A stretch of DNA of 64,000 nt from Pseudomonas alloputida (GTDB lineage Bacteria > Pseudomonadota > Gammaproteobacteria > Pseudomonadales > Pseudomonadaceae), in contig NZ_CP128540.1 in the NCBI RefSeq assembly GCF_021283545.2, positions 2,391,501 to 2,455,500 on the forward strand, in the 5' to 3' direction. The notes beneath the pieces are model-generated. The model was given only the letters and a program-made list of their open reading frames with translations. It made no database searches and was not told where the DNA came from. Of this stretch, positions 48,047-64,000 are shown piece after piece. Every line of letters starts with the position of its first letter. Positions within the stretch are counted from its first letter, which is position 1. A program made the translations under genes and the position numbers.

Positions 48047-48616
48047 TCATCCATGTTCCGCTGCTAGCATTGATCTGAACTGAGAAATGAGCGCTGAATA
48101 TAATCCGGCACCTTCGAACACTGCGCAGGTGAAGCTAACGGGTGCAGGGCCTGGAGCAGTTATGATGCGGTCTGCAACCACAGCTACTGCACTGCTTCGA
48201 TAGCGCGTGCGCCCGTCATAACCTACGGCATTTTTTTGCAGAAAGTCAGCGCTGTTCGAGGTATGAGGAACCGTGTCGAGTAGCCCGGCTCTCGCAAGTG
48301 CCAGCGTTCCACCACAGATGCCAGCAATTGTCGCTCCACTTGAACGACTAGCATGAAGAAAGTCTCGAATATCCGGAGCTTCTGTACGCTCCCAGACCAT
48401 TCCTCCAATCACGACAACAACGTCCGGTTTCCAGTCCAGGCATTGTTGCAAGCCACTATCGACAGTTACAGCCAATCCGCCCTGCGAGTGGAGCGGCCCT
48501 GTAGTAGGTGCGAAAAACCTGACGTCGATCCCGTAAAATGGAGACGCAGTTCCAGCAATGAATGCGTATTCCCAGTCAGCAAAACCCGGTGTCAGTATCA
48601 AACCCACGCGTGCCAT
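48047..48616 (-). CDS. DJ-1/PfpI-family protein
   Basis: 189 residues from ATG 48616 (GGAGGAA upstream). Flavodoxin-like glutamine-amidotransferase fold; the nucleophile elbow is IAGICGGTLALA with a Cys, and the N-terminal Glu pocket is in DWEYAFIAG. GGMVWERTEAPDI and APGPAPVSF are typical of the YdeA/ThiJ branch. It may be a glyoxalase III-like or transcriptional-regulator-related protein without DNA-binding domain. Its GC content is lower than the core genes, in keeping with accessory DNA. Confidence 0.85.
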   Translation of the reverse strand: MARVGLILTPGFADWEYAFIAGTASPFYGIDVRFFAPTTGPLHSQGGLAVTVDSGLQQCLDWKPDVVVVIGGMVWERTEAPDIRDFLHASRSSGATIAGICGGTLALARAGLLDTVPHTSNSADFLQKNAVGYDGRTRYRSSAVAVVADRIITAPGPAPVSFTCAVFEGAGLYSALISQFRSMLAAEHG

Positions 48617-48720
48617 CAGCCAGATTCCTCCATGAATGCCGATAGCGTACGGCGGCTTCAAACAGACATCAAGGTTCAGCTAGCGGTGCTCATAGAAGGG
48701 AGGATGATGTTCCCGGTCGC

Positions 48721-48738
48721 GATATTGGATTCAATATC
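48721..48738. promoter_or_regulatory. Palindrome upstream of the PfpI-like gene
   Basis: GATATTG-GATT-CAATATC, a perfect 7-base inverted repeat 105 bases upstream of ATG 48616, in an AT-rich 417-base gap (48617-49033) that shows no gene. Possible operator. Confidence 0.35.
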
Positions 48739-49033
48739 GAAATTAAGAATACTGTGCTGCTGGCACCAGGGCCTTAGGGTAATTTGAAATTTGTCAAGTG
48801 TCGGCAAGCTTGATTGACTACGATTATGAGGGCGAAAGCGAAGCTGACGCATCTTAGATAACACGCAATTGACTCCAGACCGCCGGGGGCATTTAGTGAG
48901 CTCCTCAGACTTTGTCTTCAGTAAGTGACCGCGTTTGGCCGATAACTGTTCTCCACGAAGGACAACAATGGGTCGGTTAGCGCCTCTGGATTGGGTTGAT
49001 CATCCTTGTCCTACCTCACATGGAGGACAAGCC

Positions 49034-49660
49034 ATGAACGCCATTACGACCAGCAGCCATCAGCCTTTGAACAAAGGAAAATTGGTCGGGCAGAAAGCTC
49101 CGCTCCGACTGAAAGATATCTGGGCCATTCGGGTAAGGCTCCAAATCGCGGAGGAAACTCGTGATTTAGCCCTTTTCGATCTGGCCATCGATAGCAAGCT
49201 CAAGCTACGAGCCTGCGATCTGACCAAGCTTCGCGTACGCGACGTTGCTCATGGGGAGCACGTGTCATCGCGGGCGATAGTGATGCAGCAGAAAACCCAA
49301 CGTCCCGTACAGTTTGAAATTACAGAGCAAACGCGACTGGCCCTACAGGCCTGGATACATCAAGCCCAACTCCACAGCGAGGATTGTCTTTTCCCAAGCC
49401 GGCTACACGCCTCAGTGCATCTCTCCACCCGGCAGTACGCCCGAATGGTCAAAGCGTGGATAAAGTCTATTGGGCTAGATCCTGCTATGTACGGCACCCA
49501 CACGATGAGACGTACAAAGGCATCGCTGATCTATCGCAGGACAAAGAACTTGAGAGCAGTTCAGCTCCTGCTCGGCCATACAAAGCTTGAAAGCACGGTG
49601 CGATACCTGGGCATTGAAGTCGATGACGCATTGGAGATGGCAGAGCAGACGGAGGTCTGA
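49034..49660 (+). CDS. Short tyrosine-type site-specific recombinase
   Basis: 208 residues from ATG 49034 with GGAGG upstream. It consists essentially of the catalytic domain: Arg in KLRACDLTKLRVRDV, HTMRRTKASLI (His-x-x-Arg), LLLGHTKLESTVRYLG with the last His and the nucleophile Tyr. No separate arm-binding domain. Such short recombinases are common on Pseudomonas plasmids and islands. It separates the integrase remnant from the biosynthetic cluster. Confidence 0.9.
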   Translation: MNAITTSSHQPLNKGKLVGQKAPLRLKDIWAIRVRLQIAEETRDLALFDLAIDSKLKLRACDLTKLRVRDVAHGEHVSSRAIVMQQKTQRPVQFEITEQTRLALQAWIHQAQLHSEDCLFPSRLHASVHLSTRQYARMVKAWIKSIGLDPAMYGTHTMRRTKASLIYRRTKNLRAVQLLLGHTKLESTVRYLGIEVDDALEMAEQTEV

Positions 49661-49961: not shown

Positions 49962-50768
49962 TCAGTCCGCCTGAGCCAAGCATTCACTGTCCAGCGAGTA
50001 GAGGCCGACCCTGCATACCGGCCCTTGCATCAACACGTGATAGTCGTCGTCCAGTTCGATCATGATGACGCCGCCGGCCATGTTGACCGCTACCCGAGGA
50101 CCTACCAGTCCAAGTCGACGCGAGACTGCCGCAGCAGCGCAACTGCTGGTGCCGGAGGAAAGGGTGTAGCCGACCCCCCGTTCCCAGATCTGCACCTCGA
50201 GCGTCTGACGATCGATTACCCGCACGAACTGAACATTTGTGCGGTCGGGGAAGATCGACAATCGCTCGATGAGCGGTCCCAACTGTCGTGCCAGCGTTTC
50301 AGTCGGTTGATCCACGAACACCACGCAATGGGGGTTGCCCATCGAAACCGGATGCAACTGCAAAGGTGTGCCGTCCACGTCAACGGTGAACGCCGCAGTA
50401 TTGGCAAAAGCAGCCTGGCCCATGGCGATCGAAATCCGCTGCCCGTTGTCGAGTACCTGGCAGGTGACGATCCCCCCTTTGGTCGATATTTCAAAGGGTG
50501 AACCGGCCACGATATTCTGATCCCACAAGTAGCGGCAGAGAATACGCAGGCCATTACCACTTTTCTCTGCCTGGGAACCGTCTGTGTTGTAGATCCGTAC
50601 CGACAACCGTTCACCTTCTTTGATCACCGGCACCAGTATGCCGTCGCTGCCCAACCCGCGGTGTCGGTCGCAAATACGTGAAATCATCGGTTTGGAGCAA
50701 TCAAACGGTACGCAGTCCCGGTATACAAGGTAGTCATTTCCAGCCGCATGGTATTTATAAAACTGCAT
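49962..50768 (-). CDS. DapF-family epimerase homologue with both catalytic Cys replaced by Ser
   Basis: 268 residues, full DapF length. Family motifs HAAGNDYLVY, HRGLGSDGI, NTDGSQAEKSGNGLRI, MGNPHCVVF and WERGVGYTLSSGTSSCAA are in order. The cysteines that act as the two bases in diaminopimelate epimerase (NADGSEAEQCGNG and TLACGTGA types) are Ser70 and Ser205 here. It is thus unlikely to be a normal epimerase; it may eliminate, bind or racemise with weaker bases. Last gene of the biosynthetic operon, 69 bases after the exporter gene. Confidence 0.88.
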   Translation of the reverse strand: MQFYKYHAAGNDYLVYRDCVPFDCSKPMISRICDRHRGLGSDGILVPVIKEGERLSVRIYNTDGSQAEKSGNGLRILCRYLWDQNIVAGSPFEISTKGGIVTCQVLDNGQRISIAMGQAAFANTAAFTVDVDGTPLQLHPVSMGNPHCVVFVDQPTETLARQLGPLIERLSIFPDRTNVQFVRVIDRQTLEVQIWERGVGYTLSSGTSSCAAAAVSRRLGLVGPRVAVNMAGGVIMIELDDDYHVLMQGPVCRVGLYSLDSECLAQAD

Positions 50769-50837
50769 TAGCTAAGGCACCAGAATGATCAGAGAAGTGA
50801 GGGTGAGACATTGACGACCAATGCGCGTACTGAAGCA

Positions 50838-52058
50838 TTAAAGATCTCCCCGCGCAAAGTTGCCCGGGGTCAGTCGAGGGCGCATGGCACAAAGGCTGCT
50901 ACCCGCCAGCACGCAGGCGATCAGTGAGAAGCACAAACCCTGGGGGCCCGCGAGCGATAGTATGAATCCACACCACGCCGGGCTGACTGCCGCCCCCAAG
51001 CTCGCCAGATTGTGTGCGGCGAAATAACTGCCTTTGAGGGGCGGCGGGCTGATCGAGTCAATGTAGAGATACTCCGCTGGCTGAATCAGCAGCTCGCCAA
51101 GGGTGAAAACTAGCATGGACAGACACCAGGCAGTAAGTTGCTCGGAAACCGAAAAACCGAGCAATCCGATAGAAAACAACAGGGCGCCCATCATGACCCG
51201 ACTGTTCAAAGTTTCGAGCGTGATGTAACGGCTGACGAGGCGTTGCAATGCAATGACCGTGATGGCGTTGGTCAGCAACAACCAGGACAGCATCTCCATA
51301 CCTTGGTTGGCAGGGTACTGATACAGCAACCACAGGGACAGGAAGAACGTGAAGCGACCGTGAACGACGGTGTTAAAGAATGACCCCAAGGTATAGAGAA
51401 CCAGATTTCGATCGTTGCCCAAGACTTTCAGGGCGTCCGCCAATGAGGGCGCCCCTGTCTTCAGCGAGGTGCGAGGTTGGCCCTGACTTGCGCCCAGGCA
51501 CATCATCACCACCATCGCTGCCCCGCAGGCACCCGCTGCCACCAAAAGCGCCAGGGTAAGTGAGACTTCCGCCAACCGGACCCCGAGCACAGGGCCGATC
51601 GCGAATGCCACGTTGGTCAGGATGTAGCGGTAGGAGAACGCCGAGACGCGTTGCTTCACGCTCACGAAATCGGCCAGCAGCGCTTTAAGACCAATGCCGA
51701 AGAGTGCGGCGGCGAACTCCATGAACACCAGTAGCAGGCTGACGAGCAGAATGATCTGGGCAAAGGGCAGCAGGCCTACAGCCAGCGTCATGAGCAACAA
51801 TGTGATAGTGGCAAGGTGCAATCGCGCGAAACGGTCGAATAGCAGCCCTGCCGGCAATGACATCAGCGTTGCCAGCAGCATTGAAATGCCCAGCAGCGCC
51901 CCTGTCTGCCAGCTGTTCAGGCCAAAGCGGGTGGTCAGCAGAAGAACCATCAGCGGGCTGGCTATTCCCTTGCTTGCATCGTGCAGCAGGGAACCCAGCA
52001 GGAGCGAGTGCAAGGGCGAGTGTGGCCGTGACCACGAAAGAATGGACATGGGCTGCAT
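50838..52058 (-). CDS. MFS transporter, probable exporter of the cluster product
   Basis: 406 residues from ATG 52058 (AGGAG 4 bases upstream), 12 transmembrane helices. MFS loop 2-3 motif GLLFDRFARLHLATI is visible. Position at the end of a coupled biosynthetic operon points to export or self-resistance. Start overlaps the stop of the preceding carrier-protein gene (TGATG). Confidence 0.88.
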   Translation of the reverse strand: MQPMSILSWSRPHSPLHSLLLGSLLHDASKGIASPLMVLLLTTRFGLNSWQTGALLGISMLLATLMSLPAGLLFDRFARLHLATITLLLMTLAVGLLPFAQIILLVSLLLVFMEFAAALFGIGLKALLADFVSVKQRVSAFSYRYILTNVAFAIGPVLGVRLAEVSLTLALLVAAGACGAAMVVMMCLGASQGQPRTSLKTGAPSLADALKVLGNDRNLVLYTLGSFFNTVVHGRFTFFLSLWLLYQYPANQGMEMLSWLLLTNAITVIALQRLVSRYITLETLNSRVMMGALLFSIGLLGFSVSEQLTAWCLSMLVFTLGELLIQPAEYLYIDSISPPPLKGSYFAAHNLASLGAAVSPAWCGFILSLAGPQGLCFSLIACVLAGSSLCAMRPRLTPGNFARGDL

Positions 52059-52330
52059 CAAGCTCCTGTGGACGTTGGCCTCGCCTGCCGGCGATCGGCG
52101 CACAGTGGCTGGAGCGAGGCCAGTGTGAGTGCGTGAAGATTGGCAAAGTTGGCCGGGTCGAAGACGATGCCGAACTCATTCTGAAGATGTGTAATCAATA
52201 CAATTATCCCCATCGAGTTGATTCCCTGCGCGTGAAGCGTGGCTTCTGGGTCCAAAGGGGCGGGCAGATCAGGAAACAACCTGCTCAACAGCTCGGTAAG
52301 TTCGGCACGGCTAATCAGGCTGGTGCTCAC
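52058..52330 (-). CDS. Acyl/peptidyl carrier protein (first of two)
   Basis: 90 residues. Carrier-protein fold with phosphopantetheine Ser39 in the motif HAQGINSMGIIVLITHLQ. It is coupled to the adenylation enzyme gene upstream (ATGA), so it is the likely acceptor of the activated amino acid, or one of two. Confidence 0.88.
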   Translation of the reverse strand: MSTSLISRAELTELLSRLFPDLPAPLDPEATLHAQGINSMGIIVLITHLQNEFGIVFDPANFANLHALTLASLQPLCADRRQARPTSTGA

Positions 52331-53880
52331 GGCAGGCTCCTCTGATTCATCAATGTTGCCGCCAAGGCCCGGCGGTCAACCTTACCGCTCTGATTCAACG
52401 GAAACGCTTCGACCTGAGAGAAACGCGAGGGAGTTGTCGCCTGACCGATCCGTCTGGCACATGACGTTGTAATTGCCTGGATGTCCAAGGGCATATGAGC
52501 GATCAGGAACGCGTGCAGCTCATCACTCACCTTACCCTTGCGCTTGACCACGATGGCATCGCGCACCCCTGGGCAGTTGCGCAAGGCGAGTTCGATTTCT
52601 TCGAGCTCGATGCGAACGCCATTGATCTTCACCTGGTTATCTCTGCGTCCGAGGAACACGATATCGCCGGTCGGCAGGGCACGCGCCACGTCACCGCTGA
52701 GATAGAATCTCACCTCGCCGGCACCCTCGACCTGCAACCTGCGAAAGCGCTGCTCGGTCAGCGGCGCATTGTTCAGATAACCATCGCCCACACATATACC
52801 GCCGATGATCAGCTCGCCTGCTTCCCCCGTCGGGACGGGTTGCAGGTCTTCGTCGACGATGCACACATGTGTTCCTGCAATGGGTTTGCCTATGGGGATG
52901 ACATCGCTGGCGTAACCGCGTGGCGGATTGAAGACCAAGGTGCCAATGGTGGCCTCGGTCGGTCCATAACCGTTGTAGATACGGCAGTTCGGCAAGCGCT
53001 GATGAAGCGCACTGATCAACTCAACTCCCCAAGGTTCTCCGCAGCAAACGATATGCCTGAGGTGCTGGCAGGCATTGATTGCCGGGCTGGCGAGAAGATG
53101 CTGCAGGTGGCTGGGTACCATGATGAGCATGGTGACACCGTGCTCAGCGATGCAGGCCGACAGGTAATTGGGAAAGTTGACTCGGTTGTGGTCAGGCACG
53201 AACACGGCGCCGGCGGAAAAAAAAGGCAGCACGGCCTCCTGGATCGAGGGGTCGAACGAGGCCTGGGTTTTCAGGGCCGTGACATCTTCGCTGCCGAGCG
53301 CGTAATAGTCTTGCGCCCACTGCAATCGGTTGAAAAAGCCTTTGCGGGTAATGCTCACGCCCTTGGGCACGCCGGTCGAGCCTGAGGTGAAGATCAGGTA
53401 GGCAGTCGCTTCGGGTGAAGGCTCCGGGAACAGGTCGAAGGCAGCACCGACGGGCTTGCCCGAAAACAGAGACGAGAGCGTACAGGTTGGTATTGCGTCA
53501 TCAGGCTTTTGCTCGTCCGTGATCATGAGGGCCGGCCGGGCCTGTTCGCAGATCGCCCGCTTGCGCTCAGGCGGCAGAGCTGCGGCGATTGGCAAGTAGA
53601 CCAGGCCAGCGAGCAGTAACCCCAGGACAACGACGGGATAGCGCAGTTGCACTGTCGCATTCACCGCAACCACATCCCCGCTGCGCACGCCGAGTTCATG
53701 CAGCCGAGCGTGCAGTGTGAGCAGTTCGATCCTTAGTTCGCTGTAGGTCAAGCGCTGGTCCTCGTCGAATGCCGCTGCATTCGATGGGTAGCGGTGGATG
53801 ATACGCTCGATGTATTCGACCAGCGAGAAGTGCACGGGGTAGGCAGGCCCTCCCGTGATCGTCAGTAATGCCTGGTTCAT
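52327..53880 (-). CDS. Stand-alone adenylation enzyme (NRPS A-domain type)
   Basis: 517 residues, a complete A domain without condensation or carrier domains. Core motifs: YLIFTSGSTGVPKG (A3, TSGSTG 165-170), YNGYGPTEAT (A5), GELIIGG (A6), YLSGDVAR (A7), GRRDNQVKINGVRIELEEIE (A8) and NQSGKVDRR with the catalytic Lys (A10). The A4 segment FDPSIQE has Asp210, the residue that binds the alpha-amino group of amino acid substrates, with Pro211 and Gln214 as specificity positions. It makes an aminoacyl adenylate and loads a carrier protein. Confidence 0.92.
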   Translation of the reverse strand: MNQALLTITGGPAYPVHFSLVEYIERIIHRYPSNAAAFDEDQRLTYSELRIELLTLHARLHELGVRSGDVVAVNATVQLRYPVVVLGLLLAGLVYLPIAAALPPERKRAICEQARPALMITDEQKPDDAIPTCTLSSLFSGKPVGAAFDLFPEPSPEATAYLIFTSGSTGVPKGVSITRKGFFNRLQWAQDYYALGSEDVTALKTQASFDPSIQEAVLPFFSAGAVFVPDHNRVNFPNYLSACIAEHGVTMLIMVPSHLQHLLASPAINACQHLRHIVCCGEPWGVELISALHQRLPNCRIYNGYGPTEATIGTLVFNPPRGYASDVIPIGKPIAGTHVCIVDEDLQPVPTGEAGELIIGGICVGDGYLNNAPLTEQRFRRLQVEGAGEVRFYLSGDVARALPTGDIVFLGRRDNQVKINGVRIELEEIELALRNCPGVRDAIVVKRKGKVSDELHAFLIAHMPLDIQAITTSCARRIGQATTPSRFSQVEAFPLNQSGKVDRRALAATLMNQRSLP

Positions 53881-54794
53881 GCTGCGCTCCTTGCTGTGTG
53901 GCGTACGAGACTGATTCCCTGATGAAGATCCGCATAGCCGATCAGAAGGTAGTGCTCGTCGGCCGCTATTTGCCGCTGCGAAAGCTCGGCGAGCGCCATC
54001 AGGTAATCGCTGGCGAAGCAGTGAGCCATTTGCGTCGCAGCGCCCGCGAACCGTTGCGGGGCTGAAAGGCCGAGGCGGTTCATCAGCATGTTGACAACCG
54101 GCAGGTAGAAGTTGGGCAGTACGACTTTGGCGATGTCTGATCGCTGCAGCCCGTAGCGGCCGAGCAAGCGCGTGACCTGAGTGTCCAGGGACGCGAGATC
54201 GCCGCGGAAGAATGCGCCTGGGTCGGATGCTCTGCCGAAGCTGCAGGCGGTATCGACCAGGGTTAGCGATGAGCTTTCGCCGCTGCTCAGGATCATCCCG
54301 CCTGCCGCATCGCTGAACATGCAGTTGCGATCGAAACGATGCGCCTCACTGACGGACGTGTCGGCGGTGACCAGCAGTACGTTTTTGCACTTGCCTGAGC
54401 CTATCAAGGCATCGGCCAGGTGCAGTCCGTTGAACAGGCTGTTGCAGCCACTGAGCGTCAGCCCCGTGACCGGCACGGACCCGAGGCCGCAGTTATGCAT
54501 CAGGGTGTCGAGGCGGTCGTTGCCTTGCAGGAAACCCATGGAGAATCGACTGCTGCAAACCATCAGGTGATCAATACATTGTGCTGACCCCGAGTTGGCC
54601 AATATCCGCCTGATCAAGTGCTCGGCCAGCTGGAAGGCATCACCCTGCGTCCGGCCGAGTCGGTGCCAACCCATCAGCTGCGGTGCATCAGGAAGGCCAT
54701 ATTCGCGTCGCTTGCGCTCGAAGTCCTCCACCTCGAAATAGGGAAACTGCTGCTCGCCGAGGACACTGTCGACATTGCGAAGAGAGACAGTCAT
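53877..54794 (-). CDS. KAS III-like ketosynthase/acyltransferase with altered triad
   Basis: 305 residues with thiolase fold. Nucleophile Cys117 is in LTLSGCNSLFNGLHLA, and FSDAAGGMIL is the usual glycine loop. The second catalytic position normally His in PHQAN is Asn228 (LPNFYLPVVN); the third, normally Asn in GNTSAAS, is His258 (MAHCFASDY). The Cys remains, so acyl transfer is possible, while decarboxylative condensation in the standard way is doubtful. It may act as acyltransferase on a carrier-bound intermediate. ATGA overlaps on both sides. Confidence 0.85.
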   Translation of the reverse strand: MTVSLRNVDSVLGEQQFPYFEVEDFERKRREYGLPDAPQLMGWHRLGRTQGDAFQLAEHLIRRILANSGSAQCIDHLMVCSSRFSMGFLQGNDRLDTLMHNCGLGSVPVTGLTLSGCNSLFNGLHLADALIGSGKCKNVLLVTADTSVSEAHRFDRNCMFSDAAGGMILSSGESSSLTLVDTACSFGRASDPGAFFRGDLASLDTQVTRLLGRYGLQRSDIAKVVLPNFYLPVVNMLMNRLGLSAPQRFAGAATQMAHCFASDYLMALAELSQRQIAADEHYLLIGYADLHQGISLVRHTARSAA

Positions 54795-55999
54795 GCCGAT
54801 ACCCTCTCGGCAAGGCTGAACTGTACATTGGACAGTTGCTGACGCAAACGGTTGAACACGGTTTCGGCTTCGCCGCAGAACGCCACGGAAAAGCGTACCT
54901 GATGACGCCCGGCCACCTGATAGGGAATCGTCAGGATACCCAGCTCAGTGGCCAGGTATTGCGAAAAGTCCCTGGCAGTGGCGAATGTCCTGCCGTTGCT
55001 CACAGCCGCAGGACATCGCACGTAAACAAAGAATGTGCCGTCAGCGTTTAACACCTCCAGGCCATGTGCCTGGAGAATATCGACCATTACCGCACGTCGC
55101 TGAGCTATGCACTGGCAAAGGCGTTCGGCGAAGCCCCGGTCGTCGAGAATGCAGGTCACGGCATCGAGTAAAATACGCGGCTGCCCACTTTCATGCAGCA
55201 GGCTGAGCTTGCCAAGCGCTTCGATGATTGCGGGTGCGGCAAGGATAAAGCCAAGGCGCCAGCCGGGAATCTGCAATGACTTGGAAAACGAGTGCACTTC
55301 AATGCAATGGCTCGAGGCGCCCTCGGAGTAGAGGAACCGTCCACGGGGGCGCTCGGCCGGTAGCAGATCAGAATAGGCGGCATCGTTGATCAGCAGAATG
55401 TCGTGGTCCCTGCAGATTGCCAGCAGCCGATCGCATTCCTGTTGAGAAGCCACTTTGCCCGTCGGGTTGTTGGGGTAGTTGACGATCAGCAACTTGGCAC
55501 GGGCGAGGACCTCGGGTGATAACTGATGCAGATCCGGAAGGAAATCGTTTTCCTCCAGCAATGGCAGATGTACCACGGTCGCACCCATGCGCCGGGCAAT
55601 GGTAGAAAAGATCGGGTAGGCCGGCGTCGTGGCGAGAATGACATCCCCTGTATCTATCAGGGCCAGGCATAACAGGTTGAGCGCCGACTTGGCGCCGCTG
55701 GTGGGTAGAACAGCCAGTGCAGGCGGCGCGTCCATGCCTTGGGTGGCATGGCGCAGGCAGGCGGCCTCGTACGCCGAATGATGATAGACATAGCCATGCA
55801 GCTCACGCCGCGTGGCCAGTGAGCTCAGCGCCTGGGACAGTTCGTCGGCCGGGGGGATGAAGGCATCTGCCACGCCGAAGTCCAGCAGTGGTTGTCCCGC
55901 TGTGGAGGACTTCAGCGTGCGGACCCACTTGAAAAAGTCATCGCTGTCCGGGGCCAGACTGGTCTCGCGAAAGAAAGTGTTGAAGACAGTCGCTTGCAT
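54791..55999 (-). CDS. PLP-dependent aminotransferase (fold type I, DapC/DapL-like)
   Basis: 402 residues from ATG 55999. PLP Lys240 in HSFSKSLQIPGWRLGF, NYPNNPTGKVA (residues 174-184) and NDAAYSDL (Asp206, Tyr209), Arg248 for the substrate carboxylate. Overall closest in pattern to LL-DAP or succinyl-DAP aminotransferases. Two DAP-pathway-like enzymes (this and the DapF homologue) in one operon suggest chemistry on a related amino acid; the substrate is unknown. Confidence 0.88.
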   Translation of the reverse strand: MQATVFNTFFRETSLAPDSDDFFKWVRTLKSSTAGQPLLDFGVADAFIPPADELSQALSSLATRRELHGYVYHHSAYEAACLRHATQGMDAPPALAVLPTSGAKSALNLLCLALIDTGDVILATTPAYPIFSTIARRMGATVVHLPLLEENDFLPDLHQLSPEVLARAKLLIVNYPNNPTGKVASQQECDRLLAICRDHDILLINDAAYSDLLPAERPRGRFLYSEGASSHCIEVHSFSKSLQIPGWRLGFILAAPAIIEALGKLSLLHESGQPRILLDAVTCILDDRGFAERLCQCIAQRRAVMVDILQAHGLEVLNADGTFFVYVRCPAAVSNGRTFATARDFSQYLATELGILTIPYQVAGRHQVRFSVAFCGEAETVFNRLRQQLSNVQFSLAERVSA

Positions 56000-56019
56000 G
56001 GTCGCGCTCGCTCGAAGGG

Positions 56020-57360
56020 TCAATAGTGCTCATCGTTGAAGTTGGTCAGGTGTGCAGTGCCTGAGAACCCCCCGTGATGGCTGTAACCGCGCACATGGCG
56101 CAGGCTGCGATGCTGCATGTCGTAGACGTAGATGAGTTCATTGGATACCAGCAACACGTAGCGGCCGTTATCGGAAGTCTCTATCCAGAGAGGCATGTGA
56201 CCCAACAGGGTGCAGAAGTGCAGCCCCTGAGTCGCGATGGACTCATGTGCGAAGAGTTGCTCGTCCCTGATGCACTGCAGCGAAGACTCCCTGACGATGT
56301 GGAACCGGTTGGGGTAGGCGCTGAGCACGATGTAGTGTTCGCCCTGATAACTGAACAACTTATGGGATGTCAGGCGATACAACGCCTCAGGTTGATAGTG
56401 GTCTCCCAGGCTGAGCACGCCCTCCCGAACAGTGCCTGCTTGCAACGTCGCCTCACCGTGCAATATCAATTTGCCGTGGGCTTTGGATAGGTTGTGACAG
56501 GACAGGTAGAACCGCGCAGGGTCGCTGCGTGAGAACTCGATATGCCCGGGAGTGCCCGCAGGAACGATCTGTGCGCAGGACTGCCCGGTCGACTTGTCCA
56601 CTAGGTAGATTCGGTTAGCCTGCAGGCCTCCCGCCTGATAGGCCTGCCACTGCGCTGGGTTGGCAAAAGGGTCCCCTTCTGGAGAAGGCGGACGGACATT
56701 GGCGGCCAGGCAGAATTCAGTCAGTACCAGATAACGTGGGTCCGGGCTCTGCTTGACTTCGTGCAGTGCTTCAAGGGTACGCAGCGAAGCCAGCTTGCGT
56801 GGGCTTTTCCAGCCTGTATCCAGCGCGTACAGCTCGCTATCCAACTCCTGCGGCCCCTTGCCATAGGCCCGCAAGCGCTGCTGCATATCCGTCATCGTGT
56901 ACAGGTATTCGCCTGTGTCGCGATCAAGTGAGTTTTGTGCGGACATCATGCGCGGTATGAAATCATTGTGTTCCGATACATGGCCGACGTGGTGCTGGGA
57001 AAAATCGATTTCTCGCGCATAGCTACAGTTGTGCATGCCAACTACAACGCGGCCGTCACTCAGTTCGAGTGCTTCATGCGGTTGTACGAAACAATAGGCG
57101 ACAGCCTTGCTGGAGCCACAGGCGTAAGGGTACTGGTCCGGGGCGAGGTGCTTTTCTATGTATCCGGACAATGCCGAAACATAGCTATCGACCTGTACGG
57201 CGCAGCTCTTGATCAACTTTTGGGCAAAGTCGATGAGGTAGTAGCACTCTCGATTTTCCCAGAGGCCACCGATGAAGATGCGGCCGGTCAAGTCCTCCGG
57301 CAGATGCCAGTGGGAGGGAAAGGGTTTTTCGTCGAATTGAGCGCTGTCAGTGATCGGCAT
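56020..57360 (-). CDS. Unrecognised 446-residue protein of the biosynthetic operon
   Basis: 446 residues, ATG 57360 five bases after the preceding stop. No signal peptide or membrane segment. Repeating strand-turn units (for example YYLIDFAQKLIKSC, RIYLVDKSTGQSC, NGRYVLLVSNELIYVYDM) suggest a beta-propeller. His-rich spots (FSQHHVGHVSEHNDF, GHIEFS, SCHNLSKAHGK, YSHHGGFSGTAH) could bind a metal as in carotenoid-oxygenase-like propellers, but I cannot assign a family. As an integral member of the operon it is probably an enzyme or chaperone of the pathway. Confidence 0.8.
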   Translation of the reverse strand: MPITDSAQFDEKPFPSHWHLPEDLTGRIFIGGLWENRECYYLIDFAQKLIKSCAVQVDSYVSALSGYIEKHLAPDQYPYACGSSKAVAYCFVQPHEALELSDGRVVVGMHNCSYAREIDFSQHHVGHVSEHNDFIPRMMSAQNSLDRDTGEYLYTMTDMQQRLRAYGKGPQELDSELYALDTGWKSPRKLASLRTLEALHEVKQSPDPRYLVLTEFCLAANVRPPSPEGDPFANPAQWQAYQAGGLQANRIYLVDKSTGQSCAQIVPAGTPGHIEFSRSDPARFYLSCHNLSKAHGKLILHGEATLQAGTVREGVLSLGDHYQPEALYRLTSHKLFSYQGEHYIVLSAYPNRFHIVRESSLQCIRDEQLFAHESIATQGLHFCTLLGHMPLWIETSDNGRYVLLVSNELIYVYDMQHRSLRHVRGYSHHGGFSGTAHLTNFNDEHY

Positions 57361-57365
57361 GATGC

Positions 57366-58517
57366 TTACTCCGGCATAACGGCAACAGCTTCGATTTCAA
57401 CCAGCAACTCGGTTCGGCAGACATCGGCTTGGACGAACGTCGCCACCGCTCGTTCCGGGAGAAGCGCTGCGCATACCGCGCGCACCACCGTGATGTCTTC
57501 ACGGCGTTTGATGTACACCGTGTAGCTGACAATGCTTTCAAGCCCTGATGTCGCGGGATAGCAGTCGTAATCCGAGAGCAGCCTGGCGCTGAGCAAGTTG
57601 TTTATGTTTTCAAGTGTCTGTCTGGTTTGCTGCTCGATATTCCCGACATGGACGCTCTTTGCACCGATGATACTGGCCGTTCCAGACACGAACACCATCG
57701 CCTGTGCGTCGCCGAGGATTGCTACCGCCCGGGAGAACAAGGGCGCGATCAGGCTCTCCTCTTTAGGGTACTGGAACGCGCTCGTCTGGCGTCGGTTCTC
57801 CAGTGCGACCACTCGCATGCCCGAGCGAATCTTGCACGAGAGCATCCCGAGCGTGAGTGAAGAGCCGTGCGTACCTATCCCGGTACTTGCCGGAAATGGC
57901 GAGCACAGTGCCCCCATACCGATCGAGACTTCTCGGAAAGCATCCTGTCGGGCCGCATTGACCCGTTGATAGCGGGTTTCATCGTGAGGACCTTGAGTGA
58001 TGCCGCCAATGTAGATCCAGGTGCGGAGCAGGTCATCCGGCATGTGCCCCTGGGCATGAGCGGATTCCAGGCCGTCGTAGAATTGTCGGCTGAATGCCGG
58101 GGAAACTTGCGTATCGTCGAGCGCATGCGCGTTGCTGGCCGAGAACAGCCATTGTAACGCCGCGGGCGAGCCGATCACGGCTGGTGCATCGGCAATGGCA
58201 GCTGTGTCTACCAGCCAGGCACTGATTTGAACTTGCCCCGAGAAAGGCGGCTGAACGACTACCTCAGCCCGTGAAAGCAGTGCCTGGAAATCCTTCGTCA
58301 GTTGCTCCAGAACGGTGCCGATCTGTTTCTGGTTGCTCACTGCCACGACAAGACGCAGCACGCCAAGTGGTGCCTGTTCGTTGCTGGATGGCGGCAATGA
58401 TTGCGACAGGCAGTCGCTGAATGTGTCAGGCGTACACGTGGCACTGATGAATTGATGACGAGAGCCGGCGAAGGGCAACGCAAATGCGTTGCCCCCGGAG
58501 GGAATGCTGTTAGCCAT
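57366..58517 (-). CDS. Chorismatase-like protein (FkbO/Hyg5/XanB2 family)
   Basis: 383 residues from ATG 58517 (AGGAAGA upstream). Strong family signatures: RTWIYIGGITQG, PASTGIGTHGSSL, ENRRQTSAFQYPKEE, FVSGTASIIGAKSVHVGNIE, QQTRQTLENINNLLS and the C-terminal DVCRTELLVEIEAV with the conserved Glu residues 374/376. FkbO, Hyg5 and XanB2 split pyruvate from chorismate to give dihydroxycyclohexadiene- or hydroxybenzoates. Here it may supply an aromatic unit, or act in a new way with its RidA-like fold. The N-terminal 50 residues are variable. Confidence 0.82.
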   Translation of the reverse strand: MANSIPSGGNAFALPFAGSRHQFISATCTPDTFSDCLSQSLPPSSNEQAPLGVLRLVVAVSNQKQIGTVLEQLTKDFQALLSRAEVVVQPPFSGQVQISAWLVDTAAIADAPAVIGSPAALQWLFSASNAHALDDTQVSPAFSRQFYDGLESAHAQGHMPDDLLRTWIYIGGITQGPHDETRYQRVNAARQDAFREVSIGMGALCSPFPASTGIGTHGSSLTLGMLSCKIRSGMRVVALENRRQTSAFQYPKEESLIAPLFSRAVAILGDAQAMVFVSGTASIIGAKSVHVGNIEQQTRQTLENINNLLSARLLSDYDCYPATSGLESIVSYTVYIKRREDITVVRAVCAALLPERAVATFVQADVCRTELLVEIEAVAVMPE

Positions 58518-58573
58518 TGATGATCTTCCTTTCACTGACGGGAGGGCGCGCAATCGATTCGGGGGCCAGAGCG

Positions 58574-59509
58574 TTACGGAATTCGGTTAAACGCCTTGCC
58601 ACGAGTGGTTTGCGAGCGCACGCGGTTGTGTCCGAATGCGTCTTCCCCGCCAACGATGACGGTGCCGTATTGTTCAAGGCTCACCGTTCGGCCGAACTCG
58701 GTCAGGGTGTCTGCATCCGGGTAGACCCTCACGGAGGTGGGCACGTAGCGCGAAACGTAGCCCAGGCGCGGCGTGGTCGTCTCTCCCAGATGAGGAAGCG
58801 AACCATGGAGGAGGGTGGACCAGAAAATGATGAATTCACCCTTCTTCATGGTGAAGTAGATGGCCTTCGATTCATCTGGCGCCCAGTCCGGGTCTACCTG
58901 CAAATCGCGATAGTCATAGCCATAGAAGCCGCGCGCCACGCCATTCTTGACCAGCCCGTGCTTGTCCTGGGAGTAGGCGGCCGCCTTTGATTCGTCGTAG
59001 AACCGCGCGTGCTGAGTGCCGGGGATGATGCCCATCGGCCCCATGTCCAGCGTTACGTCCGAGAGCGCCGTCCAGACCGTGACCGTTCCCCCTTGCAACG
59101 ACCCTTCGGGCCAGCGCAATGCGTCCTTGCCCCCGTTGAGGCCGGCGAACGTGTCGCCCTGGTGCCAGTCAGTCCCTTCATCGCCTGGGTACTTGGGGAA
59201 GAACTCGGAGCGCCAACAGGCCACATCACGCCCGAGCAGTTGTTGCAGCTTCGAGATGATGGCGGGATGGCAAACATGATCTGCGAGCTCATCGATGTCC
59301 AGGTGGCGGTCGTAGCTGGAGATCGGATCCTTGGTGGATTCGGCTTTACCGAACACCGACTGGGAGTGATCGAACGTCTTCAGCCGCGCGCGTCGCCAGA
59401 TGTCTTCGATCTCGCTCTGGGAGTAGGCTGGAAACGGCCCTAGATAGCCCTCTTTTTGAAAGAACGCCACTTGTTCGTCAGTGAGTGGCTGATGAAGATC
59501 ATTCGTCAT
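58574..59509 (-). CDS. SyrB2-type Fe(II)/2-oxoglutarate-dependent halogenase
   Basis: 311 residues, co-linear with SyrB2 over the whole length. In EFFPKYPGDEGTDWHQGDTF the first iron ligand is His116, and the position where hydroxylases have Asp/Glu is Gly118 (Ala118 in SyrB2), leaving a site for chloride. His235 is in FWSTLLHGSLPH and Arg254 in YVSRYVPTSV is the 2-oxoglutarate ligand. SyrB2-family enzymes chlorinate aliphatic carbons of amino acids held as thioesters on a carrier protein. Adjacent carrier protein (12 bases upstream) and stand-alone A enzyme fit this. Confidence 0.93.
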   Translation of the reverse strand: MTNDLHQPLTDEQVAFFQKEGYLGPFPAYSQSEIEDIWRRARLKTFDHSQSVFGKAESTKDPISSYDRHLDIDELADHVCHPAIISKLQQLLGRDVACWRSEFFPKYPGDEGTDWHQGDTFAGLNGGKDALRWPEGSLQGGTVTVWTALSDVTLDMGPMGIIPGTQHARFYDESKAAAYSQDKHGLVKNGVARGFYGYDYRDLQVDPDWAPDESKAIYFTMKKGEFIIFWSTLLHGSLPHLGETTTPRLGYVSRYVPTSVRVYPDADTLTEFGRTVSLEQYGTVIVGGEDAFGHNRVRSQTTRGKAFNRIP

Positions 59510-59521
59510 TACGGTTGCTCC

Positions 59522-59761
59522 TTAACCGATGTTCTCAAGCGTGATTTTCCGGCTCAATGTTGCAGCCAAGGCCGTTATCGAAGCCCCTTCGGTGAGGACG
59601 TCGAGGCTGGCGGAGAGATTGAAGCGCTTATTGAGTTCATCAATAAGAATCGCTATCTGCAAAGAGTTGATGCCCTGCTCGAACAAGTCGGCATGTGGGT
59701 CGAATACCGAGGTGTCGACCAGATCAGCTAGTATCTTCTCGATCGCATGGATGATCGTCAT
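59522..59761 (-). CDS. Peptidyl/acyl carrier protein (second of two)
   Basis: 79 residues. Phosphopantetheine site Ser33 in DLFEQGINSLQIAILIDEL. Directly upstream of the halogenase gene in transcription order, so it is the best candidate for the halogenase carrier. Confidence 0.88.
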   Translation of the reverse strand: MTIIHAIEKILADLVDTSVFDPHADLFEQGINSLQIAILIDELNKRFNLSASLDVLTEGASITALAATLSRKITLENIG

Positions 59762-59787
59762 TGGATAAAGGACTCCCAGTCAGGCTG

Positions 59788-61203
59788 TCAGATGTTTACC
59801 GCAGCAATTTTAATGTCCGTATTGAATGCGCCTTCGACGAACGCGCGGGCCAAATCATCGATCAGCCAATGGATGAGTGAACAACCCGCCTCGGTGAACA
59901 CCAGCCACTCTGCATCATCGATAGCCAGGCCCATGGCGACCCAGGTATCGAGCAGTTGTTCTACGGCGGGACGCGTTACTCCACTCTCAGCCAGCAGGTG
60001 GGCTCTCTTCACACGGCTGAATACCCGGATGTAGCGCATGAACTTGACCATGAATCGTTCTTTGTCATCGAACAGCGAACCACTGGCCAACGGTAATCGG
60101 CCGCTTCGCACACGCTCCATCCAGCCATTGAGTGATTCATGGTTTTGCACCCAATGGCTGGCGGCTGTGGAAAAGGCCCCCATGCCCAGGCCGAAATAGG
60201 GAACGACTGTACTCCAGCGTTCGATCATCGTTTCCCATGAAGTGATGGCTTCTGTCTTCCTGGCTTTAACGAACCACCCCAAGGGGCTTTCCTGGTAGCC
60301 GCATGCTTCGAGGTAGGTTTTGCCAAGGAAGTACATTTCCCTGGCCTTGTATTCGGAGACCGTTGCCCAAGGTTGCTGGCGGGCCAGTTGATAACTCTTG
60401 GTGCCGGCAAATAGTTCGTTGCGATAGAAGGTGATGGAGGGCACATCCAGATTCACCAGGTCTTTCAGAGTCAGAAACACCGACTCAAGTGATTGCCCGG
60501 GCATCCCATATAAGACGTCGGTATTAACCAGATCGAAATGCTCCAGTGTGGTGGCCACCCGCTCCAGAAGTTTTTCTCGCGGCAGGATCCGCCCTTCCCG
60601 TTGCCGCAATGCCGTATCGGTGGATTGCACGCCCAGGCTGATGCGATTGACGCGAGCGCGGAGCAGTTTCAGTTTCGATGTGGTCAGCGTTGCCGGGCTC
60701 GCCTCCAGCGTGATCACCGGATTGTCGGCAAGTCGACTGCGTTGCAAGGCGCCATCGACGAAAGCCGCGAGCAGGTCGTTGTCGAGAATGGAGGGCGTTC
60801 CACCTCCGAAGTAGAGACTTCCCGCGGGTACCGAAGCTAGCCCGGCATTGTTGTAGATATCCAGTTCCTTGAGGATGACCTCGATGTATTCGCGTTTCTC
60901 TTCCACGCGTGGGCTACGCGAGTAGGCAAGGTCGCAGAATGAGCAGGTTTGAATGCACCACGGCACGCCAAGATAAAGCGCCGTATTTTTGGCAACGGCC
61001 AGTTCCTGGACGATGGCCTGCTGCGCCTGTAGGGGTGACAACGGCGCGCTGATGCTGCGGCTTGCCATGTGACGCAAGTTATCGAAGCGATGTGTGAAGG
61101 CCGTGCGATCAACCCAGAAGTGGGCGGGTACGTCTTGATAACGATGGTTCATTCGCGTCATGGCCGCATTCAGAACATCATTGAAATTCGAGTTGTCAGC
61201 CAT
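59788..61203 (-). CDS. HemN/HemW-like radical SAM enzyme
   Basis: 471 residues from ATG 61203 (GGAGG upstream). The [4Fe-4S] motif CxxxCxxC is PWCIQTCSFCDL (Cys83, Cys87, Cys90), with GGGTPS (SAM binding), then GVQSTD and the HemN C-terminal domain with a winged-helix-like end. Coproporphyrinogen oxidase itself is unlikely, given its place as first gene of a biosynthetic operon with halogenase and carrier proteins. HemN-like enzymes in other clusters methylate or cyclopropanate. Confidence 0.88.
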   Translation of the reverse strand: MADNSNFNDVLNAAMTRMNHRYQDVPAHFWVDRTAFTHRFDNLRHMASRSISAPLSPLQAQQAIVQELAVAKNTALYLGVPWCIQTCSFCDLAYSRSPRVEEKREYIEVILKELDIYNNAGLASVPAGSLYFGGGTPSILDNDLLAAFVDGALQRSRLADNPVITLEASPATLTTSKLKLLRARVNRISLGVQSTDTALRQREGRILPREKLLERVATTLEHFDLVNTDVLYGMPGQSLESVFLTLKDLVNLDVPSITFYRNELFAGTKSYQLARQQPWATVSEYKAREMYFLGKTYLEACGYQESPLGWFVKARKTEAITSWETMIERWSTVVPYFGLGMGAFSTAASHWVQNHESLNGWMERVRSGRLPLASGSLFDDKERFMVKFMRYIRVFSRVKRAHLLAESGVTRPAVEQLLDTWVAMGLAIDDAEWLVFTEAGCSLIHWLIDDLARAFVEGAFNTDIKIAAVNI

Positions 61204-61314
61204 AGCGCGCACGCGACCTCCATTGTGAATTATTTCAACCCAAAGTCCCTGGGCATTGTTCGGCAAAGAGTGCCGGCGGCGGGGATACTCAATGATCTTT
61301 TAGTCAGCTGTCAA

Positions 61315-61342
61315 TCTATATCAAAAATGTATTGCCTGTGAA
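61315..61342 (-). promoter_or_regulatory. Candidate promoter of the biosynthetic operon
   Basis: Minus strand TTCACA (61342-61337), 16 bases, TATAGA (61320-61315), 112 bases before the radical SAM start in a locally AT-rich stretch. The 594-base divergent gap 61204-61797 shows no other gene; the LysR protein encoded across it presumably binds here. Confidence 0.45.
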
Positions 61343-61797
61343 AAAGTTGATATTAATAAGTGGTGCGCGGTAATGGTTTTACGTATTTTTAAAAGGTGGA
61401 TTGGTTCGGTTTTATATGCGGCGTGGTTGATGTTCCTTGCAGTAAGTGATTTGAAGGGCATAAGTGTCGCGGGCTACGCTGAAGGTGCGAGCCAGGGCGA
61501 TACTTGCAAGAAAACCTCAATAGAATGATTATCCTGCAGCCTGACGCTCAGTGCTGATATACGAGCAGGTGTTCCTCGGCCTGTTGTTCGTGGCGTGGGC
61601 CAGGATTGCTGGCAGCGTAGGGTCCCATCTGGGTGGGCCGCTGCTTCACCACTTGCACGGGCATGGCGCAACGTGCGATCAGCCGGGTACGATGGGGCAG
61701 TTGTGAGTCAGCTGTCGTGGGTAGGCGGCGATGGACCCGCAGTGGGAAGGGGCAGGGTTATTGGGTCATAGTGATTTGCGTTATTCAGGGAGTGAAG

Positions 61798-62730
61798 ATG
61801 CAACTAAAATTTCGGCACATAGAGATATTCAAGGCGATCATGATCACTGGAACGGTCACCGGCGCTGCGCAGTTACTTGAGACGTCCCAGCCAACGATAA
61901 GCCGAGAGCTCTCCAACTTTGAAAGCAGTATCGGAATGATGCTGTTCGAACGCCACAAGGGACGCCTCAAGCCCACGGCTCAAGGGATGGCTTTGCATTC
62001 CGAGATTCTCAAGGCCTATGACGGTCTGGCACGAGTGAGTGCCGCCGCGAAAATCATAAAACTTGGACTGCGCGAGAAGGTCAGCGTCCTCAGCCTGCCT
62101 GTCCTGTCACAAACGATCTTGCCGGCCAGCCTGGCGCGGTTCATGGAGATCTACCCTGATATCAACCTCAGCCTCTCGACTCACGACTCGCCCGATATCG
62201 AACCGCTGATATCCAGCCAAGCGTACGACATCGGTTTGATCGAGGGCGTGAGTGCCCCGATGGGGACCACCACTGAACACTTGACGGATGTGGATGAAGT
62301 CTGTGTTCTTCCACCGGGCCATCCACTGTCAGCGTTTACCCACATCGACCCTCGGCAGTTAAGCCAATACCCCTTCATTCACTTGGCACCGAATGACCCT
62401 TATCGACACCAGCTGGACAGTGTATTCGCGCAGTTAGGCGTTTCGCGCAGCAGTATCATTGAAGTGGATAATGCTGCCACTATCTGTCAGATGGTGCTGA
62501 GCGGTATCGGCGTATCGATCATTAATCCGCTCGTGGCCAATACCTATGCCAGTCAGGGCCTCACCATCCGGCGCCTCACGGTCTCGGTGCCTTTCAGTAT
62601 CAGCCTGGTTCGCCCGCTTCAGCGTGGGGCCTCGTTAGTTGTCGACCATCTTGTGGAATGCATACGCAGTACCTCGCACGCGCTATGTATGCAATACCGC
62701 TCGGATATACGTCTGGCTGAATCCGTATAG
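61798..62730 (+). CDS. LysR-family regulator, probable cluster regulator
   Basis: 310 residues from ATG 61798. Winged helix MQLKFRHIEIFKAIMITGTV, GAAQLLETSQPTISRELSNF, then a LysR substrate-binding domain (NLSLSTHDSPDIEPLISSQ). Divergent from the biosynthetic operon, so very likely its regulator. Similar to OccR/NocR-type opine regulators in its N-terminus (SQPTISRELSNFE). Confidence 0.9.
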   Translation: MQLKFRHIEIFKAIMITGTVTGAAQLLETSQPTISRELSNFESSIGMMLFERHKGRLKPTAQGMALHSEILKAYDGLARVSAAAKIIKLGLREKVSVLSLPVLSQTILPASLARFMEIYPDINLSLSTHDSPDIEPLISSQAYDIGLIEGVSAPMGTTTEHLTDVDEVCVLPPGHPLSAFTHIDPRQLSQYPFIHLAPNDPYRHQLDSVFAQLGVSRSSIIEVDNAATICQMVLSGIGVSIINPLVANTYASQGLTIRRLTVSVPFSISLVRPLQRGASLVVDHLVECIRSTSHALCMQYRSDIRLAESV

Positions 62731-62816
62731 GTGAAGGCGACCGTTTTTTGCGACGCTGTGTGATGTGCACGGGGGTGATATCAAATGATGCGTGTTTCAT
62801 TCGAATCGGATATGCA

Positions 62817-62846
62817 TTGACAGTTTTTTTTGCTAGGGATTATGTT
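62817..62846 (+). promoter_or_regulatory. Candidate sigma-70 promoter of the proC-like gene
   Basis: TTGACA (62817-62822), 18 bases including an 8-T run, then TATGTT (62841-62846), 86 bases before ATG 62932. Confidence 0.6.
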
Positions 62847-62931
62847 CTGTAACTGTCCTGCCTTGATCCAGTCTGCGGGCATCCGCAGCAGCGTCTTATC
62901 GCTGCTGCTTCAATTCATAAAAGGGAATTAT

Positions 62932-63726
62932 ATGAAAACCATCTACATGGTCGGTGCGGGCCACATGGGCGGGGCAATCCTGCTGGGGTTGAAAGCGTAT
63001 TTCAAAAGTGCCACCGACTTGCGTGTGATTGAAATTGATACGCAGCGGTCGAACGATTGGCGTGCGAAGGGATTTGAGACGTCTTCACGGATTCAAACAC
63101 TGCAACCTCAGGATTGTGTGGTGCTCGCCGTGCCACCGCAGCAGTTCGAAAACATGCTCGCGGCAAATCCGGTGCTTTGTCGCCACCGTGGGCCGGTCGT
63201 TTCGGTGATGGCGGGCATCACACATGCCACGCTGGTTCGCCTGCTAGGGCATGACGCCGTCGTGCGAGCCATACCCAATACGCCCTCGGAAGTCGCCCAA
63301 GGCGTCACGATGTATTACGCACCCTCGGATGCCGATGCGGCGCTGATCGACAGTGCTCGGCAGATTTTCGACGTGATCGGGCTCTCGCTGAGGGTCAATG
63401 ACGAAAGGCAAATCGACACTGGAACGGCTTTGGCCGGCGGTGGGCCTGCATTGGTCGCGCACTTTGCCGATGCGCTTCAGGACTACGGGCTTCACATGGG
63501 GCTGGACAGCGAGCAGGCCGCGGTCGTCGCCCTGCAGCTACTCAGTGGCACAGCAGCGTTGATCCAGGCGAGCGGTAAGCCGGCAAGCCAGATCTGCCAG
63601 GAGGTGCAAACGGCCGGAGGCACTACCGAACGCGCTATCCGTGCCTTGGACGCAGCTGGCTTCAAAGGGCTGGTAAATGCGGCACTGGATGCGGCAGCCA
63701 GGCGTTCTGCAGAGTTGGGTCAGTGA
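62932..63726 (+). CDS. Pyrroline-5-carboxylate reductase (ProC-like)
   Basis: 264 residues from ATG 62932 (AAGGGA upstream). NADPH motif MVGAGHMGGAI, and RAIPNTPSEVAQGVTMYY and AGGGPALVAHFADAL correspond to the substrate pocket. The usual ALTGSGPAY is AGGGPALVA and the Lys/Arg surroundings differ, so it may reduce an imine other than pyrroline-5-carboxylate. Part of the cluster by position, followed by a methyltransferase gene 17 bases on. Confidence 0.85.
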   Translation: MKTIYMVGAGHMGGAILLGLKAYFKSATDLRVIEIDTQRSNDWRAKGFETSSRIQTLQPQDCVVLAVPPQQFENMLAANPVLCRHRGPVVSVMAGITHATLVRLLGHDAVVRAIPNTPSEVAQGVTMYYAPSDADAALIDSARQIFDVIGLSLRVNDERQIDTGTALAGGGPALVAHFADALQDYGLHMGLDSEQAAVVALQLLSGTAALIQASGKPASQICQEVQTAGGTTERAIRALDAAGFKGLVNAALDAAARRSAELGQ

Positions 63727-63743
63727 TTCCAGGAGGATGAGGC

Positions 63744-64000
63744 ATGACAACTATGACCGCGCCCGGAAGTGTTCACACTGACCTGGCGGCCTATAACCTG
63801 TACTTCGGCATGGGGCAGCGGATTACGTTGATCGACAACCCGAAGGTGTTCAGGGTGAGCCCTGCCGGAGAAGCGTTCGGGTCATTGATTGCTAGGCGTT
63901 TCGGGGGGCGTGACAGAGATGCCCGTTTTCTTGACGTGGGGACGGGGAGTGGTGTGCACGCCTTACTGCTGCGACAGTTAGGCATGCGGCATATCACCGC
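63744..64000 (+). CDS. SAM-dependent methyltransferase, N-terminal part
   Basis: Starts at ATG 63744 with AGGAGGA upstream and runs off the window. SAM-binding motif I is RFLDVGTGSGVHALLLRQLG (near residue 65), preceded by a HemK/PrmA-like segment (VFRVSPAGEAFGSLIARRF). Class I methyltransferase fold. Probable tailoring enzyme of the cluster; the substrate-recognition part is not visible. Confidence 0.8.
   Translation, partial: MTTMTAPGSVHTDLAAYNLYFGMGQRITLIDNPKVFRVSPAGEAFGSLIARRFGGRDRDARFLDVGTGSGVHALLLRQLGMRHIT

Follow-up and report, generated by a model that had tools for sequence, protein, structure and literature searches.

What small molecule is made by a set of genes that combines a SyrB2-type halogenase, a chorismatase-like protein and a radical SAM (rSAM) protein with two free carrier proteins? 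The question is raised by a locus of Pseudomonas alloputida in which eleven genes run on the minus strand from 61203 to 49962 of the stretch of 64,000 nucleotides that was analyzed (the window), corresponding to positions 2391501-2455500 of a 6.44 Mb single-contig genome. The eleven genes are one real operon and go beyond a chance assembly, because the same eleven genes recur in one order in five of 398 Pseudomonas genomes. We give an even chance to the view that this is an orphan operon whose product, a small metabolite for export, is assembled on stand-alone carriers by the route proposed below; a small modified amino acid is a good guess for this product.

Gene content of the operon

A sequence-only reading of the window had listed eleven same-strand genes, and both the listing of open reading frames (ORFs) and family scans agree with it in number and order. 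In the direction of transcription, the genes encode:

59788..61203, minus strand: HemN-like rSAM protein with a CxxxCxxC motif (PF04055, E 7e-13; HutW model 164 bits, below its cut-off of 400)
59522..59761, minus strand: carrier protein CP1, GINSL motif (PF00550, E 5e-11; Ser present in all five loci)
58574..59509, minus strand: SyrB2-type Fe/2-oxoglutarate halogenase with an HxG motif (TIGR01762 358 bits, cut-off 226; alignment to SyrB2, E 5e-107)
57366..58517, minus strand: Hyg5/FkbO-type chorismatase-like protein (PF21168 and PF01042; TIGR04444 171 bits, cut-off 325)
56020..57360, minus strand: beta-propeller protein with seven invariant His (lacking a convincing Pfam match; AlphaFold2 model, pLDDT 88.3)
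54791..56023, minus strand: pyridoxal phosphate-dependent aminotransferase, LL-diaminopimelate aminotransferase-like (PF00155, E 3e-49; PRK06290 261 bits, below its cut-off of 585)
53877..54794, minus strand: ketoacyl synthase III (KAS III)-like protein with an HCFASD motif and Cys117 kept, a probable acyltransferase (alignments and solved-structure sequence matches)
52327..53880, minus strand: stand-alone amino-acid adenylation (A) enzyme (TIGR01733 360 bits, cut-off 317)
52058..52330, minus strand: carrier protein CP2, overlapping the A and exporter genes (PF00550, E 2e-7)
50838..52058, minus strand: YdeE-like exporter of the major facilitator superfamily (MFS; PF07690, E 2e-26; start ATG 52058)
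49962..50768, minus strand: DapF-fold protein with Ser at both catalytic Cys positions (TIGR00652 219 bits, cut-off 115)

All parts of the operon belong to known families, the propeller protein excepted. With TTG 56023 as the start of the aminotransferase gene, overlaps occur at five of the ten junctions: propeller/aminotransferase (TTGA), aminotransferase/KAS and KAS/A (ATGA), A/CP2 (GTGA) and CP2/MFS (TGATG). The overlaps that had been claimed are thus real, albeit that "most" was slightly too strong a word for them. The start at ATG 61203 that had been assigned to the rSAM gene is possible, with an upstream TTG at 61266; a database copy of the protein counts 474 residues and starts three codons before this ATG. 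As had been stated, no modular nonribosomal peptide synthetase (NRPS) or polyketide synthase (PKS) is encoded inside the operon, and family scans of its proteins revealed neither a thioesterase nor a condensation family.

Recurrence of the operon in Pseudomonas

Co-conservation across strains had been named beforehand as the point on which the idea of a gene cluster should stand or fall, and the complete colinear operon was found in five of 398 Pseudomonas genomes, from several species. When genome contigs were scanned with the halogenase, 226 relatives were found; among the best 80 of these, two loci carried the whole operon, namely those of Pseudomonas sp. LB-090624 (99-100 % identity) and P. 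orientalis DSM 17489 (46-83 %). Searching 398 Pseudomonas genomes with the propeller protein gave five hits, and the rSAM protein, used at E 1e-60, gave the identical five. At every one of these loci the eleven genes and a LysR gene are colinear in one order, with proteins that are 46-100 % identical. The loci represent about three lineages: the window with LB-090624, genome G200, and P. orientalis with genome G168.

Predicted amino acid loading and chlorination

The halogenase aligns to SyrB2 across some 300 residues. At the positions that we take to form the Fe site of SyrB2, it reads HQG where SyrB2 has HQA, the glycine replacing the carboxylate ligand, and the distal His is kept in all five loci. 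The assignment to the SyrB2 type that had been made before stands on the profile score (358 against 226 bits) as well as on the HxG motif and both His residues. It is highly improbable that the enzyme is now a hydroxylase or inactive: nothing direct speaks in favor of this, while the HxG position and both His are kept in five of five loci and the protein is, at 83-100 % identity, the best conserved one of the operon.

The stand-alone A enzyme and the carrier genes that had been proposed are likewise backed by family matches, TIGR01733 above its cut-off and PF00550, respectively. The stretches that line the substrate pocket of the A enzyme are identical in all five loci, although the enzymes as a whole fall to 66 % identity. 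Read by eye at the pocket positions that we presume to correspond to those of PheA, the code is D-P-Q-I-V-C-G-I-G-K, which was matched to no known substrate.

The label KAS III-like given earlier to the next protein holds for the profile and the active-site Cys and fails for the FabH arrangement of His and Asn. All of the eight sequences aligned have Cys117; at what we take to be the FabH His and Asn sites, recognized from the HQAN motif, the protein carries Asn228 and His258, respectively, the latter within an HCF-[AS]-[AS]-D motif. A Cys-His-Asn triad in FabH order is therefore absent, and the score against the FabH model TIGR00747 is 39 bits, with a cut-off of 292. The five solved structures matched are 9z38, the best match, which has a similar HCGASD stretch, the FabH-type 2ebd, ChlB3 (E 5.5e-5) and two further KAS III proteins. 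ChlB3 is a KAS III-type acyltransferase; the operon protein shares the thiolase-type profile and the Cys with enzymes of this type, yet its identity to ChlB3 is low. Judged from these residues, the protein is more likely an acyltransferase than a FabH-type condensing enzyme. An AlphaFold model made from three sequences was poor (pLDDT 50).

Relatives of the KAS III-like protein occur in 12 of the 398 Pseudomonas genomes, five of them within the operon, and five of the seven loci outside it (L104 to L108) were examined. In L105 and L106, the KAS relative directly follows a halogenase that is 52-53 % identical to the one in the window. An adjoining adenylation-family protein and a carrier protein were confirmed by Pfam in L105, and the neighboring ORF of L106 was judged by eye. 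Because KAS thus partners a halogenase repeatedly, a role as acyl shuttle is proposed. In L104 the relative lies between large ORFs, and in L108 at an A-CP ORF.

Some further observations were made at these loci. L105:6497-11596 and L106:5544-10654 represent a second type of Pseudomonas locus, in which halogenase and KAS III-like genes, together with those for the adenylation-family and carrier proteins, are followed by one for a TPR protein; in L105, genes for an amidohydrolase and a methyltransferase are nearby. In L107:616-9608, possibly another biosynthetic cluster, a KAS III relative is accompanied by thioesterase, haem-oxygenase-like, acyl-CoA dehydrogenase, P450, Lys/Orn monooxygenase and DAO genes.

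The closest parallels to this half of the operon are the SyrB1/SyrB2/SyrC and CmaA-E systems, which act in the pathways to syringomycin and coronamic acid, respectively. They share with the operon an A enzyme, a carrier-bound amino acid, a SyrB2-type halogenase and a separate acyl shuttle. The operon differs by its KAS III-like putative shuttle, its two free carriers, the added rSAM, chorismatase-like and propeller proteins, and by the fact that no thioesterase family was seen in it.

The chorismatase-like, radical SAM and propeller proteins

G173, G240, C327 and E334 of Hyg5 have identical counterparts in the chorismatase-like protein, and these are invariant in all 14 aligned sequences, one Klebsiella row of which is a short model. 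According to the available part of PMC7170507, E334 is catalytic and three residues of Nat-Hyg5 mark the subfamily; these were carried over to Hyg5 by a constant offset of nine. The protein thus has the catalytic Glu together with the Gly, Gly and Cys of a Hyg5/CH-II chorismatase, which suggests an aromatic input, 3-hydroxybenzoate, that the sequence-only reading did not contain. As in the neoantimycin cluster with its Nat-Hyg5, as far as described in that part of PMC7170507, Hyg5-type residues occur here within a natural-product gene cluster; unlike there, the operon is without an NRPS/PKS line, and its protein is divergent and below the NCBIfam cut-off.

Among solved structures, the rSAM protein matches the methyltransferase NocN best (E 1.6e-17), with HemN at 8e-15. 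It has both the CxxxCxxC motif and the HemN-like profile of the class C (HemN-like) methyltransferases. With NocN and the cyclopropanase C10P/C10Q (available part of PMC6050322) it shares the setting of a HemN-like rSAM enzyme in a biosynthetic cluster, with a methyltransferase gene nearby in the window, but the operon protein falls into a separate clade.

The description of the propeller as an orphan propeller-like protein was apt: it represents a real family with a conserved set of His residues and is confidently modeled as a beta-propeller. No Pfam or NCBIfam match was obtained, the best Pfam hit among 19 members being at chance level (E 0.08), and a profile of the family found no solved-structure sequence up to E 1. 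Foldseek places the model in the propeller fold; NdCCD ranks fourth (TM-score 0.48, root-mean-square deviation 9.6) amid many unrelated propellers, and the Pfam family of carotenoid cleavage oxygenases is not among the weak matches up to E 1. Database entries for the propeller that carry a name read "hypothetical", and those for the rSAM and chorismatase-like proteins have generic names.

Protein searches reaching beyond Pseudomonas yielded 19 propeller proteins, that of the operon counted. The rSAM protein has 20 close relatives including itself (at least 34 % identity, E 1.4e-91 or better), the next match being at 5e-41. Relatives of the chorismatase-like protein are numerous (2727 among 7998 scored), and 120 of the 2727 were compared for contig sharing, which was judged indirectly, by equal sizes of the longest contigs listed. 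All three proteins have an equal size in three cases, P. graminis (135192), Klebsiella sp. DNRA6 (312401) and a contig of 13763. Two further cases join propeller and rSAM (8733 and 16393), three propeller and chorismatase (4552, 3798 and 452100) and three chorismatase and rSAM (168503, 345835 and 57949), and the remaining proteins on the three lists have no longest-contig size in common. In Klebsiella sp. DNRA6, the propeller and chorismatase-like genes have the locus tags HG597_20195 and HG597_20200. The rSAM, chorismatase-like and propeller genes thus appear to sit on the same contigs elsewhere. A search for the propeller in the other 368 of 369 class genomes and in plasmids was negative. 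A plasmid location was also considered for the Klebsiella rSAM clade and rejected: of 400 plasmid matches, the five listed were only 25-28 % identical and named hemN or coproporphyrinogen oxidase, which places them outside this clade.

These data bear on the possibility that the operon consists of two modules that became linked: rSAM, chorismatase and propeller would form the older core, acting on a chorismate-derived ring, and the halogenase, KAS, A and CP genes would have joined it in Pseudomonas. The appearance of the core proteins on common contigs outside Pseudomonas, as in Klebsiella sp. DNRA6, agrees with this, as does the halogenase-KAS pair of L105 and L106, where the core was not detected. 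The Klebsiella and metagenome clusters, however, are known by the three core genes alone and may also contain a halogenase. A two-module origin is quite possible, albeit at less than an even chance.

The DapF-like protein and the fate of the chlorine

The last protein had been labeled DapF-like, which is right for fold and profile (219 against 115 bits) and wrong for the catalytic residues: instead of the Cys pair of diaminopimelate epimerase, it has Ser/Ser in all five loci. It resembles DapF and O-ureidoserine racemase in fold, and the score lies above the NCBIfam cut-off for DapF, but it differs from both by the Ser at each catalytic Cys position. The other DapF of the same genome keeps Cys/Cys, and the operon copy is therefore regarded as a specialized paralogue. 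To judge by these residues, it is probably not an epimerase.

According to the available part of PMC8142540, beta-halo amino acids lose hydrogen halide (HX) when acted on by DapF or glutamate racemase, and 3-chloroglutamate undergoes elimination by glutamate racemases with a Cys-to-Ser change. By analogy, the operon protein may act on a halogenated amino acid, which is the boldest step we infer. In the portion of that paper referred to here, a halide as leaving group in DapF-fold enzymes has so far been seen almost only with unnatural substrates.

The chlorine might instead be retained, the product being a chlorinated amino acid, either free or as a 3-hydroxybenzoate conjugate, which the DapF-like protein binds or isomerizes at another position. 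The products of SyrB2 relatives often retain the halogen, the chorismatase residues are intact, and the surrounding genes for EamA, DAO and MFS proteins would suit an amino-acid-like product. Against this stand the Ser/Ser pair in a fold that includes enzymes able to eliminate HX, which in glutamate racemase holds for a single Cys-to-Ser form as well, and the failure to see a condensation domain for a conjugate among the operon's proteins. Retention of the chlorine is considered somewhat unlikely.

A proposed route

The following reactions and their order are derived from the gene set, the catalytic-residue patterns and the co-conservation described above. The A enzyme would load an alpha-amino acid onto CP2, and the KAS III-like acyltransferase would shift the aminoacyl group from carrier to carrier or onto an acceptor. 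Such a transfer would also account for an operon without a thioesterase. The halogenase would chlorinate the carrier-bound residue at an unactivated carbon, and an sp2 carbon may receive a one-carbon unit or a methyl group from the HemN-like rSAM protein. The Hyg5-like chorismatase would convert chorismate to 3-hydroxybenzoate as a second building block, and the propeller and aminotransferase might complete the product. From the released chloro-amino acid, the Ser/Ser DapF-like protein would take the alpha-proton, so that chloride is lost or internally displaced to give an alkene, imine or ring, without epimerization. The MFS protein would export the product under regulation by LysR. The most far-reaching version, a new biosynthetic logic in which a natural DapF-fold Ser/Ser dehydrohalogenase or cyclase consumes a C-Cl bond made on a free carrier and a new His-lined propeller enzyme family travels with chorismatase and rSAM, is regarded as doubtful.

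Several points weigh against the proposed route. The operon has one A enzyme, seemingly specific for amino acids, which leaves the attachment of a hydroxybenzoate without explanation. The chorismatase-like protein scores 171 bits where TIGR04444 demands 325, and the SRG of Hyg5 reads THG, TQG or THS in the proteins of the operon. 9z38, the best solved match of the putative acyltransferase, is itself named a 3-oxoacyl synthase 3, so that a condensing reaction is conceivable. The glutamate racemase precedent retained one Cys as a base and the DapF-like protein retains neither; a Ser/Ser protein could have another reaction or none. In L105 and L106, tblastn at E 1e-4 found only the halogenase and KAS among the operon's genes, and the operon may thus be a combination of modules without any simple relationship between their products. 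Finally, conservation across five loci stands for some three lineages only.

As judged by titles and the first lines of abstracts, no characterized cluster with this gene set was recognized in the open-licence PMC literature, to which the comparison was directed (MIBiG and subscription papers lying outside its scope), and within it the earlier statement that no characterized natural product matches holds. Given this scope, the cluster could already have been described in MIBiG or in subscription literature; as the searches of open-licence papers gave no match and database copies are "hypothetical" or generically named, this is improbable. The por hydrazine cluster of P. orientalis (available part of PMC11705231) was considered and taken as a different cluster, its N-hydroxylase and hydrazine synthetase not being recognized in the ORFs of L003. 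The enzyme types combined here were not found together in the same literature, and a product of chlorination, radical SAM and chorismatase chemistry would probably have an unusual scaffold. In kind, the sequence-only interpretation is for the most part upheld. The operon is rare, strongly co-conserved, uncharacterized and in a mobile-looking setting, and it holds a conserved propeller family without a convincing Pfam match. It also offers a test of whether a DapF-fold enzyme lacking both Cys uses halide as a leaving group.

Flanking DNA, divergent arm and promoter

The downstream end of the operon is adjoined by recombination genes: a DDE-type transposase (46454-47434), a piece of an integrase (47455-47826) and an integrase (48935-49660), and the recombination ORFs at 46454-49660 separate the operon from other chromosomal genes. 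A flank "full of" recombination genes had been reported, which applies only to the last 3 kb before the operon; in the region from 19.8 to 33.4 kb, none of ten proteins scanned belongs to a recombination family. L002 carries a 79 % identical integrase at the matching operon end. Flanks differ among the loci. The window has ORFs for a transposase and integrases, and rve-type transposase genes, which we presume to be IS3-like, lie beside L003 and L088; no recombination gene was recognized in the single flanking ORF scanned in L089. The differing neighbors and recombination genes fit horizontal transfer, and the mobile context suggested before is borne out by the ORFs in the window and beside L003 and L088. 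With a G+C content of 57.9 %, the operon lies below the 60.3 % of 1-20 kb and the 62.1 % of 20-49.9 kb, as does the LysR arm with 56.8 %. Operon DNA gave a single match of 49 bases in plasmids, and the integrase stretch gave none. Elsewhere in the window, a group II intron with a reverse transcriptase/maturase ORF lies at 20862-22655, and a gene of the lysine/ornithine N-monooxygenase family at 42941-44341, about 5.6 kb past the operon end; as far as read, the latter is not conserved with the operon.

The other side of the operon comprises:

61307..61354, minus strand: mostly conserved block in the divergent promoter, an ATATCA..TGATAT inverted repeat followed by TTGACA (comparison of five loci)
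61798..62730, plus strand: divergent LysR-type regulator (PF00126 and PF03466; likely start 61798)
62830..63726, plus strand: ProC-like reductase, accessory (PF14748; adjoins the operon in three of five loci)
63744..64000, plus strand: class I methyltransferase running past the window end (L087:2245-3084)

The divergent LysR, ProC-like and methyltransferase genes that had been noted are all present. ProC adjoins the operon in only three of the five loci and is therefore accessory; a second ProC is present elsewhere in the same genome. Past the window, the LysR-ProC arm continues with the methyltransferase, an EamA transporter and an FAD oxidoreductase (L087:2245-5145). ORFs whose N-termini resemble the methyltransferase and EamA transporter of this arm were seen in L089 and L002.

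Much of the gap between the LysR and rSAM genes has diverged, but all five loci have largely preserved the 48 bases of the block at 61307-61354. TTGACA is present in each of them, and the ATATCA/TGATAT repeat is exact in three (the window, L002 and L089) and altered to TGACAT in L003 and L088. From this pattern, the block is a plausible LysR site plus promoter. A hairpin-like CCCAGGGACTTTGGG lies at 61239-61253, directly before the rSAM ATG, in a region that is partly conserved in the other loci.

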